In this document: positions 1,294 through 34,863 of the stretch, piece after piece | Numbering within the stretch: position 1 is the first letter of the stretch | Layout: each line of letters starts with the position of its first letter | From: Clostridia bacterium | Lineage (GTDB): Bacteria > Bacillota > Clostridia > Oscillospirales > CAG-272 | Direction of reading: 5' to 3' | Length of the DNA stretch: 37,224 nucleotides | Assembly (NCBI GenBank): GCA_017463665.1 | Contig: JAFTOT010000084.1 | Coordinates: 1 to 37,224 of the forward strand | Translations under genes and position numbers: made by a program | The notes under the pieces: generated by a model | Databases searched by the model: none | Seen by the model: only the letters and a program-made list of their open reading frames with translations | Told to the model about the DNA's origin: nothing

Positions 1294-1554
1294 TTACGTA
1301 CCCGAACGCGCAAAGAGCCCCTTTTTTGCAGAGGTTTTCGCCGCGTAATACACGCCGTCGATCCTGCCCGCCACGAGCAGGTCGCCGCTCTCCGAGGACA
1401 TGTTTAAGATCCGCAGATCGCCGCCCTCGATCTCCACCTTGCCAAGCGGCGTCGTCACCGCCACAAAGTCGCTGTCAAATGTCAGAACCTCGCTCACCGC
1501 GCTCATCACCACCCGCTCGCGGTTGATGACCTCAATATTTGCACCCTTGTCCAT
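1294..1554 (-). CDS. yabP: YabP-family sporulation protein
   Basis: An 86-residue YabP/YqfC-family protein. Visible family features are NRERVVMSAVSEVLTFDSD near the N-terminus and the GKVEIEGGDLRILNMSSESGDL core, which match the single-domain sporulation family whose founding member is a cortex assembly factor regulated in the mother cell. I placed the start at ATG 1554 (MDKGANIEV) because GGAGGT lies 6 nt upstream; an ATG at 1560 directly overlaps that ribosome site. The stop abuts yabQ. Upstream, the gap to rqcP is filled by a hairpin array, so yabP may be expressed partly independently of the upstream genes. Confidence 0.87.
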   Translation of the reverse strand: MDKGANIEVINRERVVMSAVSEVLTFDSDFVAVTTPLGKVEIEGGDLRILNMSSESGDLLVAGRIDGVYYAAKTSAKKGLFARSGT

Positions 1555-1621
1555 ACGCATACCTCCGTTTTCTACTAAGATATGCAGGAGAAAAGCGGGA
1601 AATGAATGTTTCGGGGCGCAA

Positions 1622-1812
1622 ATGATTTGCGCCTGCTGCGCATGATTTGACGGCGATGCCGTCATGATTTGGAGCCGGCGCTCCATGATTTGAATTGCGA
1701 TCCCCTATGCCCCGCAGGGCAAATCATGGCGAAGCCAAATCATGAGCACGCAGTGCTCAAATCATGCGATCCCAAGGATCGCAATTCATCGTTTAGCGGC
1801 AGAGCCGCTAAA
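1622..1812. repeat. micro-hairpin array A (ATGATTT / AAATCAT spacers)
   Basis: A string of eight short palindromes separated by 7-nt spacers. Reading plus strand, spacers ATGATTT occur at 1622, 1642, 1664 and 1685; after the centre GAATTGCGATCCCC (1692-1705) they become AAATCAT at 1721, 1737 and 1759, then AATTCAT at 1783. Hairpins are stem GCGC (1629-1641), GACGGC with loop GAT (1649-1663), GGAGC (1671-1684), GCCC (1709-1720), GGC loop GAA (1728-1736), GAGCAC loop GCA (1744-1758), GCGATCC loop CAA (1766-1782) and TTTAGCGGC loop AGA (1792-1812). It begins 3 nt past the rqcP stop codon and lies between two minus-strand genes. The same units in the same order recur, inverted, at 7662-7844. Confidence 0.92.
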
Positions 1813-1815
1813 CAC

Positions 1816-2055
1816 TCAAACAACTTCGTACATCTCGGCGGCATCGGCTTTTTTGGTGCTTTCTTTTACGTCGGTGACGCGGACGCGGAGCGTCTTTTCG
1901 CCGAAGGTGATCTCGATGATGTCGCCGACTTTGACATCGTAGGATGCCTTGACGACACGTCCGTTGACGCTGATGTGCGCCGCGTCACACGCATCATTTG
2001 CCACAGTGCGGCGCTTGATCAGGCGCGACACCTTTAAAAATTTATCAATACGCAT
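1816..2055 (-). CDS. rqcP: S4-domain RNA-binding protein RqcP (YabO/HslR family)
   Basis: A 79-residue protein made almost entirely of one S4 RNA-binding domain (MRIDKFLKVSRLIKRRTVAN, then AHISVNGRVVKASYDVKVGD). The family (YabO, renamed RqcP) binds stalled 50S subunits and supports C-terminal alanine tailing with RqcH in ribosome quality control. AAGGAG sits 6 nt before the ATG. The position between mazG/hup and yabP matches yabO in other Firmicutes. An upstream hairpin at 2078-2100 could reduce read-through from hup. Confidence 0.9.
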   Translation of the reverse strand: MRIDKFLKVSRLIKRRTVANDACDAAHISVNGRVVKASYDVKVGDIIEITFGEKTLRVRVTDVKESTKKADAAEMYEVV

Positions 2056-3378: not shown

Positions 3379-3455
3379 TGTAGGGGCGGATAGTATCCGC
3401 CCGTTTTGCAAAACATTGCTGTTTCACAGGCGGGCGGATGATATCCGCCCCTACA
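3379..3455. repeat. GTAGGGG-bounded inverted-repeat element G1
   Basis: Ends TGTAGGGGCGGATA (3379-3392) and TATCCGCCCCTACA (3442-3455) are perfect inverted repeats of 14 bp. Each end also forms its own small hairpin (GGGCGGAT against ATCCGCCC). The 77-bp unit sits in the gap between the flippase and mazG. It is one of at least six elements in the window with GTAGGGG ends. Confidence 0.85.
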
Positions 3456-7661: not shown

Positions 7662-7844
7662 GCACTTCGTGCAATGAATTGCGATCCTGCGGATCGCATG
7701 ATTTGAGCACTGCGTGCTCATGATTTGCCTACGGCATGATTTGCGCTGCGGCGCATTGGGGATCGCAATTCAAATCATGGAGTGCAAAACACTCCAAATC
7801 ATGACGGCATAGCCGTCAAATCATGCGCGATACGCGCAAATCAT
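7662..7844. repeat. micro-hairpin array B (inverted copy of array A)
   Basis: Nine hairpin units with the same words as array A in reverse order. Plus strand: GCAC loop TTC (7662-7672), GCGATCC loop TGC (7681-7697), GAGCAC loop TGC (7705-7719), GCC loop TAC (7727-7735), GCGC (7743-7754), centre GGGGATCGCAATTC (7758-7771), GGAGTG (7779-7795), GACGGC loop ATA (7803-7817) and GCGCG loop ATA (7825-7837). Spacers are ATGATTT at 7698, 7720 and 7736, then AAATCAT at 7772, 7796, 7818 and 7838. The array starts 4 nt after the dtd stop and ends 5 nt before the hemZ ATG, filling the whole intercistronic gap. Confidence 0.93.
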
Positions 7845-7848
7845 TGTC

Positions 7849-8301
7849 TTATTTCTTCCAGATTTTTGAATCCATCAAAATGGTGACGGGGCCGTCGGCG
7901 GCGAGGGCGATCTGCATATCCGCGCCGAATACGCCTCTTTCGACGGGGACGCCCGCCGCTGCGAGCTGCTCGCAAAAGCGCTCATAGAGCGGCTCGGCGA
8001 TCGCAGGCGCCGCCGCACCCGTGAAGGACGGGCGGTTGCCGTGCGAAACATCGGCGCCGAGCGTGAAATTGGAGACGACCAGCGCACTGCCGCCGATGTC
8101 GGTGACCGACAGGTTCATCTTATCGTTCGCATCGGTGAAGATGCGGAGCTTTGCCACTTTTGCCGCCAGAATGTCGGCATCCTCGACGCCGTCTCCGTCC
8201 ACCACGCCGCAAAGCACAAACAATCCCTTGCCGCACTTGCCTGCGGGGACACCGTCCGCCACGACCGAGGCAGACGCGGCTCTCTGAATCACTGCAATCA
8301 T
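7849..8301 (-). CDS. dtd: D-aminoacyl-tRNA deacylase
   Basis: A 150-residue Dtd protein, the usual length. Motifs present: MIAVIQRAASASV at the N-terminus, the catalytic-side motif VSNFTLGADVSHGNRPSF (family SQFTL...GxRPSF) and ADGPVTI (family NxGPVT, the cross-subunit Gly-cisPro motif). The enzyme hydrolyses D-amino acids and glycine mischarged on tRNA. Its ATG overlaps the relA stop by 4 nt, giving translational coupling; relA-dtd is a widespread Firmicutes pair. Confidence 0.96.
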   Translation of the reverse strand: MIAVIQRAASASVVADGVPAGKCGKGLFVLCGVVDGDGVEDADILAAKVAKLRIFTDANDKMNLSVTDIGGSALVVSNFTLGADVSHGNRPSFTGAAAPAIAEPLYERFCEQLAAAGVPVERGVFGADMQIALAADGPVTILMDSKIWKK

Positions 8302-12677: not shown

Positions 12678-12780
12678 TTCATCTATCTCCAATTTTTTAA
12701 TAATAAACGAGAGTAACGTGACACTGACGCAGTCACGAGGGCAAAGAAAGGGAAAATATCAAAAACAACATCGTGGTACT

Positions 12781-12916
12781 TTGTAACATCTAAAAATTTA
12801 CAAAGCGAATCCGCGAGATCCGATGGCTTCGCCATCGCCCTACGGGTTTCGACTGCGCCTACGGCTACGCCGGGGATGACGCGCGGAGGGAGCAGACGAA
12901 GTTTGAGTTGTTACAC
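12781..12916. mobile_element. MITE-like element D, copy 1
   Basis: Ends TTGTAACATCTAAAA (12781) and, inverted, GTAACAACTCAAACTT (right end at 12915) form an imperfect terminal inverted repeat. The roughly 135-bp interior has no ORF and contains a strong hairpin of stem GATGGC with loop TTC. A second copy lies at 32910-33043, nearly identical over about 48 nt of the interior. No clear target duplication is seen. It lies between recJ and the FAD dehydrogenase gene. Confidence 0.8.
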
Positions 12917-12919
12917 TAT

Positions 12920-12976
12920 TGTAGGGGCGGCTATCAGCCGCCCGAAAAGCATAGGCGCGTGTTGTACACACGGGGA
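12920..12976. repeat. GTAGGGG element G2, apparently truncated
   Basis: Begins with TGTAGGGGCGG and a hairpin of stem GGGCGGCT, loop ATC, then continues CCCGAAAAGCATAGGCGCG. That interior string recurs in G4 (32155) and, diverged, in G6 (33167). No matching CCCCTAC right end is visible, so this looks like a left-hand fragment inserted next to MITE copy 1. Confidence 0.7.
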
Positions 12977-32892: not shown

Positions 32893-32909
32893 ATTTATAG
32901 AGTAGTATG

Positions 32910-33043
32910 TTGTAACATCTAAAAGTTTACAAAGTGAATCCGCGAGATCCGATGGCTTCGCCATCGCCCTACGGGTTTCGACTTCGCTGCGCTCCGCCGG
33001 GGATGACGCGCGGAGGAAGCATATAAAGTTTTAGTTGTTACAA
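32910..33043. mobile_element. MITE-like element D, copy 2
   Basis: Ends TTGTAACATCTAAAAG (32910) and, inverted, TTGTAACAACTAAAAC (right end 33043) give a terminal inverted repeat with few mismatches. The interior matches copy 1 at 12781 over about 48 nt and again over GCCGGGGATGACGCGCGGAG, while the stretch between differs. 134 bp, no ORF. A right-hand GTAGGGG element follows after 1 nt. Confidence 0.82.
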
Positions 33044-34717: not shown

Positions 34718-34863
34718 GTCGCTTTGCGACATTGCAGTGAAATATTTTGCGAAACGCAAAATGTGAAATATTGCACTTCGTGCAATATGAAATGCACACT
34801 TCGCGTGCGTGAAATTTGCCGCAAGCGGCAAGTTTAGGAAACAAAATCGCTTTGCGATTTTGT
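34718..34863. repeat. micro-hairpin array C (RTGAAAT spacers)
   Basis: Plus strand: GTCGC loop TTT (34718-34730), ATTTTGCG loop AAA (34744-34762), spacer GTGAAAT, ATTGCAC loop TTC (34770-34786), spacer ATGAAAT, GCAC-based unit (34794-34808), spacer GTGAAAT, TTGCCGC centre AA (34816-34831), GTTT loop AGG (34832-34842) and ACAAAATCGC loop TTT (34841-34863). It begins 5 nt after the asnS stop and ends 20 nt before the aminotransferase ATG. Same design as arrays A and B but different spacer and stems. Confidence 0.85.

Follow-up and report, generated by a model that had tools for sequence, protein, structure and literature searches.

The window analysed here, a 37,224-nucleotide stretch of DNA from a Clostridia bacterium (contig JAFTOT010000084.1, positions 1 to 37,224), carries two arrays of short hairpins joined by seven-nucleotide spacers, both lying within runs of minus-strand genes. 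Array A is flanked by a gene for an S4-domain (Hsp15-like) protein (1816..2055, minus strand), named from weak family scores and its translation, which is upstream on the transcribed strand, and by a yabP-like sporulation gene (1294..1560, minus strand) downstream on the same strand. Array B (7662..7844, minus strand) is the array A element in opposite orientation and lies between hemZ and the D-aminoacyl-tRNA deacylase gene dtd (7849..8301, minus strand), which is upstream on the same strand. Read on the plus strand, array A follows a terminal-repeat-like sequence, AATGAATGTTTC (1601..1612), and opens with a left half (1622..1691) made up of spacer s1, hairpin h1 (1629-1641), s2, h2 (1649-1663), s3, h3 (1671-1684) and s4 (1685-1691). 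The centre C, GAATTGCGATCC (1692..1703, with CC directly after it), is followed by hairpin h4, GCCC cgca GGGC (1709..1720). The right half (1721..1789) comprises s1', h5 (1728-1736), s2', h6 (1744-1758), s3', h7 (1766-1782) and s4' (1783-1789). An outer hairpin h8, GTTTAGCGGC aga GCCGCTAAAC (1791..1813), recognised from covariation and position, lies 2 nt past the stop codon (1816-1818) of the minus-strand upstream gene; in array B, the last spacer lies 4 nt beyond the dtd stop codon (7849-7851, minus strand). A further segment of array A, E (GGATCGCAATTC, 1776..1787), is capable of a 12-bp pairing with C over its full length, its first seven nucleotides being also the 3' arm of h7. The order s1 h1 s2 h2 s3 h3 s4, C, h4, s1' h5 s2' h6 s3' h7 s4', usually with h8, is found in every intact copy printed.

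A preliminary description of this DNA had claimed that the spacer changes to its complement across the centre of array A and that array B repeats the change about an inverted centre, and both statements hold to the base. ATGATTT occurs in the left half of array A at 1622-1628, 1642-1648, 1664-1670 and 1685-1691, and in the right half it is replaced by AAATCAT (1721-1727, 1737-1743 and 1759-1765) and AATTCAT (1783-1789). In array B, ATGAATT (7674-7680) and three copies of ATGATTT (7698-7704, 7720-7726 and 7736-7742) precede the centre GGATCGCAATTC (7760..7771), which is C on the minus strand and is predicted in the plus-strand fold to pair with 7676-7687; AAATCAT follows at 7772-7778, 7796-7802, 7818-7824 and 7838-7844. 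Seven of the eight ATGATTT words in the window fall inside the two arrays, where base composition predicts about one per strand for the whole window. The arrays are mutually inverted copies, with complementarity of 92% over 112 nt and 91% over 54 nt. The RTGA within the RTGAWTT spacers is also an overlapping start and stop codon; judged from the sequence, a translational role seems unlikely, because the hairpin lengths keep no frame.

Searching the bacterium's own 1.77-Mb genome with the 200-nt element gave 52 BLAST matches, which reduce to about 40 places when split matches and antisense matches are combined. The element is about 170-200 nt long, non-coding, intergenic and dispersed, and many copies at unrelated loci share 88-93% identity with array A. 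A pattern of three spaced CATGAWTTG words returns 31+31 matches in the same genome, as compared with none in all 394 sampled genomes for the backward-read control. The pattern is present in 27 of these 394 genomes of the order and in 22 of 169 genera. Its distribution is uneven, with 62 matches in the own genome, 39 in G062, 19 in G008 and none in many close relatives, and the carriers are genome bins of Clostridia, Oscillospiraceae and Christensenella-like bacteria, for the most part from the gut of ruminants. The same spacer word thus recurs in many families of the order, where the stems differ, and a second word, RTGAAGY/RCTTCAY, is also used in the own genome. Matches in cyanobacteria, Nitrosomonas and a gammaproteobacterium look like chance tandem repeats and were set aside. 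A phage or plasmid origin was rejected as well, since phage and plasmid records contain no match to the element; some IMG/VR contigs carry genuine arrays, which may be host DNA. Searches against Rfam 15 gave chance-level array matches only, none above the gathering threshold of any family, and no prior description of the element was found in the open-access literature.

The switch is a property of the family as well. Among the 113 arrays of six or more spacers that were retrieved from the own and other genomes, 87 have exactly one change of orientation, a fraction of 0.770 against 0.040 when orientations are shuffled; the other copies therefore do not show the random spacer orientation that the preliminary description had named as the contrary outcome. 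Arrays lacking a single switch mostly look like tandem elements (such as L053 and L116), stray adjacent words, or tandem repeats that arose by chance in taxa unrelated to the carriers. The clean single-switch arrays divide into 78 with the usual order, ATGAWTT to AAWTCAT, and nine in which AAWTCAT comes first. Since these nine occur in reverse order, the conserved feature is the complementarity of the halves, not the order of the two words. Reverse-order arrays include L088, L124, L134, L100 and L102; in three of them the innermost helix reaches into the centre with a different sequence, AATTCATTCCGGGCAG pairing with CTGCCCGGAATGAATT in L124 and ATTCATTCCTGC with GCAGGAATGAAT in L134, and similarly in L088. 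A conserved central helix, ATTAAGG...CCTTAAT, was sought in the symmetric elements of other genera and fitted no better than swapped partners.

Pairing was assessed in an alignment of 37 copies. Pairing in the hairpins amounts to 89.2%, and 146 double-changed cells stand against 48.1 after shuffling; covariation among the copies backs the hairpins of both halves of array A; h4 is 98% paired. The helix between C and E (C:E), whose arms are separated by about 70-80 nt, is 97.7% paired, with 27 double-changed cells against 8.8 shuffled, a count reached in none of 500 shuffles. As h7 and C:E share the first seven nucleotides of E (columns 169-175), the two helices are mutually exclusive, and both covary. 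In columns 84/160/173, which bear on both helices, G/G/C is found in 13 copies and A/A/T in nine, and most copies keep both options. It is well supported, then, that the element maintains two mutually exclusive helices, h7 and C:E, each held by compensatory change. The two-state structure that had been proposed for these arrays survives to this extent: a structural conflict exists, and the supported pair is h7 versus C:E, not hairpins versus a rod of paired spacers. In several copies one hairpin is swapped for a mirror-like non-hairpin word, CTCGC..CGCTCC or its complement GGAGCG..GCGAG, in place of h3 (L020, L022, L024, L027, L029 and L033) or at the h5 position (L035 and L204).

The spacers present a different picture. 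In the rod, in which each left spacer pairs with a right one, they are 94.8% paired, as compared with 94.1% in shuffles, and at the variable W the mismatches from the outermost to the innermost pair number 26, 10, 5 and 0 of 37. Register within one element is no better than shuffled (589/2000), and register-specific covariation in the rod was looked for and not found; the spacer word does, nevertheless, change together across the whole element, in both halves (cross-element shuffles 0/2000). The fit of the innermost rod pair loses significance when copies from the own genus are left out (22/30 against 19 expected). The variable base of the outermost right spacer, by comparison, matches centre C in 37 of 37 copies (AU 30, UA 7, mismatches 0). 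Spacers vary little, their variants are mostly without compensation in the rod partner, and column entropy is 0.125 bits in spacers and 0.573 bits in stems. Hairpins, in short, are conserved as pairs and spacers as letters. Pairing from spacer to spacer, as first suggested for the two halves, is not supported by compensatory change, as the 589 of 2000 shuffles and the outermost pair, mismatched in 26 of 37 copies, attest.

Folding of the arrays on both strands, with and without constraints, had been recommended at the outset, and hairpins alone prove far worse than the alternatives. In ViennaRNA, RNA from either strand has a mean minimum free energy of -89 kcal/mol over the 37 copies. With all rod spacers enforced, the means for the two RNA strands are -83.4 and -82.3 kcal/mol; with C:E enforced they are -77.6 and -80.8, and with both forbidden -53.3 and -54.7. 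DNA parameters return the same order. Loss of both spacer-to-spacer and C:E pairing therefore costs roughly 25-35 kcal/mol relative to the minimum, whichever strand is folded and whether RNA or DNA parameters are used, and none of the 37 copies comes within 3 kcal of its optimum without them. Single-array fold z-scores range from -4.7 to -7.8. By these models the element needs the rod or C:E for a stable computed fold; the two differ by about 1-6 kcal/mol on average, and the models do not choose between them because they ignore coaxial stacking and pseudoknots. The contrast originally drawn between many small hairpins and one long rod falls away, as in the rod the hairpins persist, projecting as side arms from flush four-way junctions. 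Internal mismatches show a weak G.T excess in hairpins (23 versus 10) that is reversed in C:E (3 versus 7), and assignment of a strand from G.T versus A.C mismatches was not decisive.

A word kept as letters invites comparison with protein-binding sites. DNA transposons carry inverted subterminal binding-site arrays, in which short words are oppositely oriented in the two halves. The arrays described here resemble these in having short words inverted between halves, a likeness of form only, and depart from them in that each gap is a covarying hairpin. It is possible, if rather unlikely, that the arrays are inverted binding sites in double-stranded DNA, with a putative transposase, nucleoid protein or replication protein binding the 7-mer, and with hairpins that merely space the sites and fold incidentally; such an account is compatible with mobility and denies a role to the fold. 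A nearly invariant word that changes element-wide and not register by register is what it would lead one to expect, and the resemblance of the word to the start of the terminal repeat described below, together with the existence of other word families (RTGAAGY), is in keeping with it. It leaves unexplained, however, the flush covarying hairpin in nearly every gap and the conserved C:E helix. Spacing, moreover, varies from 16 to 24 nt, and the arrays of opposite order do not fit a simple model of inward-facing binding sites.

A purely mutational origin seems improbable. Here, template switching at quasi-palindromes would correct stems and homogenise spacers without any selection for the fold, as might be read from loops that occur as GGC gaa GCC and, in the opposite orientation, as GGC ttc GCC, and from whole stems that turn over between orthologues (L018 versus L061). 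Such a process does not, however, account for an h1-h8 order and a spacer word that stay constant over about 40 unrelated loci, for covariation of C:E across its long separation, or for the recurrence of one word in many families of the order while the stems differ.

Comparison with the sister species G005 bears on mobility. Of 17 sites compared, five share the element, one has a different family (at the L044 site, a family-1 array in G005 stands opposite a family-2 array, with the RTGAAGY word, in the own genome) and 11 are without the element, having no array or other sequence, in some cases hairpin arrays of another type. Array B is present in G005 as the same copy at the same site (L057). 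At the site of array A, G005 has AATGATTG TTTG CGCG CAAACACTT, that is, two terminal stubs with the core absent, and keeps AATGATTGTTTG where array A has its left terminal sequence; because both stubs remain, this may be a loss instead of an empty site. The five shared copies diverge as orthologues, and a tree of copies mixes the two species.

The terminal repeat AATGAWWGTTTA, from which the left end of array A differs by one mismatch, has 45 matches in the own genome, as compared with one for the backward-read control. It flanks about ten family-1 copies and also bounds, with TAAACWWTCATT, several elements of 140-275 bp whose palindromic cores are unrelated (L245, L267, L254, L270 and L032:86-233 in the own genome), which suggests that family 1 represents one core type in a larger group with common ends. 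Both ends are recognised in one family-1 copy, L028 (at most two mismatches in all), and one end in about nine others, several of them cut by contig ends; most older family-1 copies retain only TAAAC on one side. In elements with terminal inverted repeats, the left flank mostly ends in TA and the right flank rarely begins with TA. These flanks hinted at an IS630-type mover, a candidate that was dropped when DDE_3 (PF13358) gave no match in six genomes of the genus, which are 53-84% complete. The Y1 transposase profile (PF01797) likewise has no match in the own genome, 84% complete, while control genomes do match; searches with these two profiles thus found no transposase for the element.

Contigs break within near-identical copies, a sign of recent spread. 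An insert of about 95 nt inside h4, CAATTATACAAG...TTGTATCCGCCtttGGCGGATACAA...GTCGCGGTAATCATG, is common to three unrelated loci (L031, L032 and L036), and the variant copy was therefore multiplied. An element of the RTGAAGY/RCTTCAY type is nested in a family-1 copy, where it replaces the third spacer. Nesting, the common insert and the near-identical copies at contig ends point to copying.

The elements are unevenly placed with respect to genes. Within 35 nt of 90 elements there are 41 gene 3' ends and 10 gene 5' ends, as called by a simple codon model that was trained on this window and is rough for other species. Divergent gene pairs are rare (five of 41), and none of the elements in a previous round of gene calling fell within a called gene. 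Such placement could suggest a host RNA structure at mRNA 3' ends or between operon genes, similar to REP/BIME or ERIC sequences, an explanation that we consider doubtful. The block would shield upstream mRNA from 3' exonucleases or limit readthrough, possibly with a co-transcriptional switch between h7 with the rod and C:E. The preponderance of 3' ends, the stop codons 2-4 nt from arrays A and B, the rarity of divergent pairs and the location of both arrays in minus-strand gene runs would agree with it, as would the competition of two covarying helices for one arm, the small energy gap between rod and C:E, and a terminator-hairpin-like sequence between the element and the next gene at L009, L010, L012 and L014. 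Both orientations relative to the upstream gene occur, however, A and B being transcribed oppositely; the G.T excess among internal mismatches is weak in hairpins and reversed in C:E; most of the matching sister-species sites are without a copy; and the 3'-end counts depend on the simple codon model. The position just behind stop codons is most simply explained by tolerance, and the ends of mRNAs may be affected as a by-product.

Among known repeats, the closest parallels are the bacterial MITEs, which include ERIC/RU-1, RU-2/YPAL, Correia/NEMIS and RUP (PMC2229807). Like these, the element is within 100-300 bp, non-coding, intergenic, dispersed and strongly folding, has no transposase of its own and, on at least some copies, has a candidate terminal inverted repeat. 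It is short and multi-copy, at about 40 places in 1.77 Mb, and is present or absent at orthologous sites, with one of the 11 vacant sites in G005 retaining stubs. It departs from other bacterial MITEs in its core, a row of flush hairpins, seven or eight in number, linked by a 7-nt word that is inverted about the centre, in the existence of several word families, and in a terminal repeat common to elements with an unrelated core. REP/BIME sequences with RAYT (PMC3733652) are also intergenic palindromes, often near stops, with a conserved short word at the hairpin foot; they are loose single or paired palindromes, unlike the fixed eight-hairpin order and central switch found here. Membership in that group was rejected, as no GTAG or CGTC foot stands beside a hairpin in the 37-copy alignment and the Y1 profile has no match in the own genome, 84% complete. 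The pneumococcal BOX (boxA-boxBn-boxC; PMC3049150) is likewise an interspersed repeat of modular build with several stems; it can be transcribed and has no clear target duplication or mover. BOX, however, repeats one module in tandem and in one direction, whereas the hairpins of the present element all differ from one another, its linker is the sole repeated part, and its direction flips in the middle.

Taken together, the arrays probably behave like an undescribed family of small, mobile palindromic elements, and we lean towards a non-coding, dispersed, strand-symmetric MITE-like element. Counting against this reading are the negative transposase searches, the single family-1 copy with both ends recognised, flanks that seldom show TA on both sides, the stubs at the array A site of G005, the five copies that diverge as orthologues, the lack of phage or plasmid matches, and the arrays of opposite order. 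On this reading a single recognition word, RTGAWTT, would be repeated in inverted orientation in the two halves; the word resembles the beginning of AATGAWWGTTTA, the terminal repeat at the ends of some copies. When single-stranded, as lagging-strand DNA, an excision intermediate or mRNA, the element is expected to fold up as a compact ladder with hairpins at its sides, which either the paired spacers or the C:E helix would hold together. Strand symmetry would make both orientations equivalent, which suits insertion either way, and fold and word most likely serve the element's own copying or cutting by a putative enzyme. A broader claim is speculative and, in our estimate, unlikely: that a new class of element extends across this order of gut Clostridia, with lineage-specific words (RTGAWTT, RTGAAGY) each read by its own putative copying enzyme and with C:E opening and closing the hairpin ladder. 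If the MITE-like reading is true, gut Clostridia harbour a family of palindromic elements in which the sequence itself reveals both fold and spelling, offering a clean test of selection on a recognition word versus pairing between halves, and a handle on the moving enzyme. In this assembly the arrays coincide with contig ends, and they sit at gene 3' ends, so that in a poorly cultured group they may influence both assembly and the ends of mRNAs.

Other repeats occur nearby. The second array family, in which spacer RTGAAGY changes to RCTTCAY at the centre, is represented by L037 (G000:C84, about 687-930) and by L044 and L045. Another hairpin-array family in G005 has the order CCCTCATC, hairpin, CCTTCCCC..GGGGAAGG, centre, and then the reverse complement order, ending in GATGAGGG; its members L212, L211 and L203 occupy sites orthologous to L004, L017 and L033. 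A Gut-1 RNA match in Rfam lies at 34735-34820 of the window (plus strand), barely over the gathering score. A further interspersed repeat has two copies, at 12773-12915 and 32902-33042 (identities of 93% and 88% over 86 and 52 nt), and a small palindrome family of GTAGGGGCGG..CCGCCCCTAC inverted repeats is found at 3379-3455 and 12920-12944.
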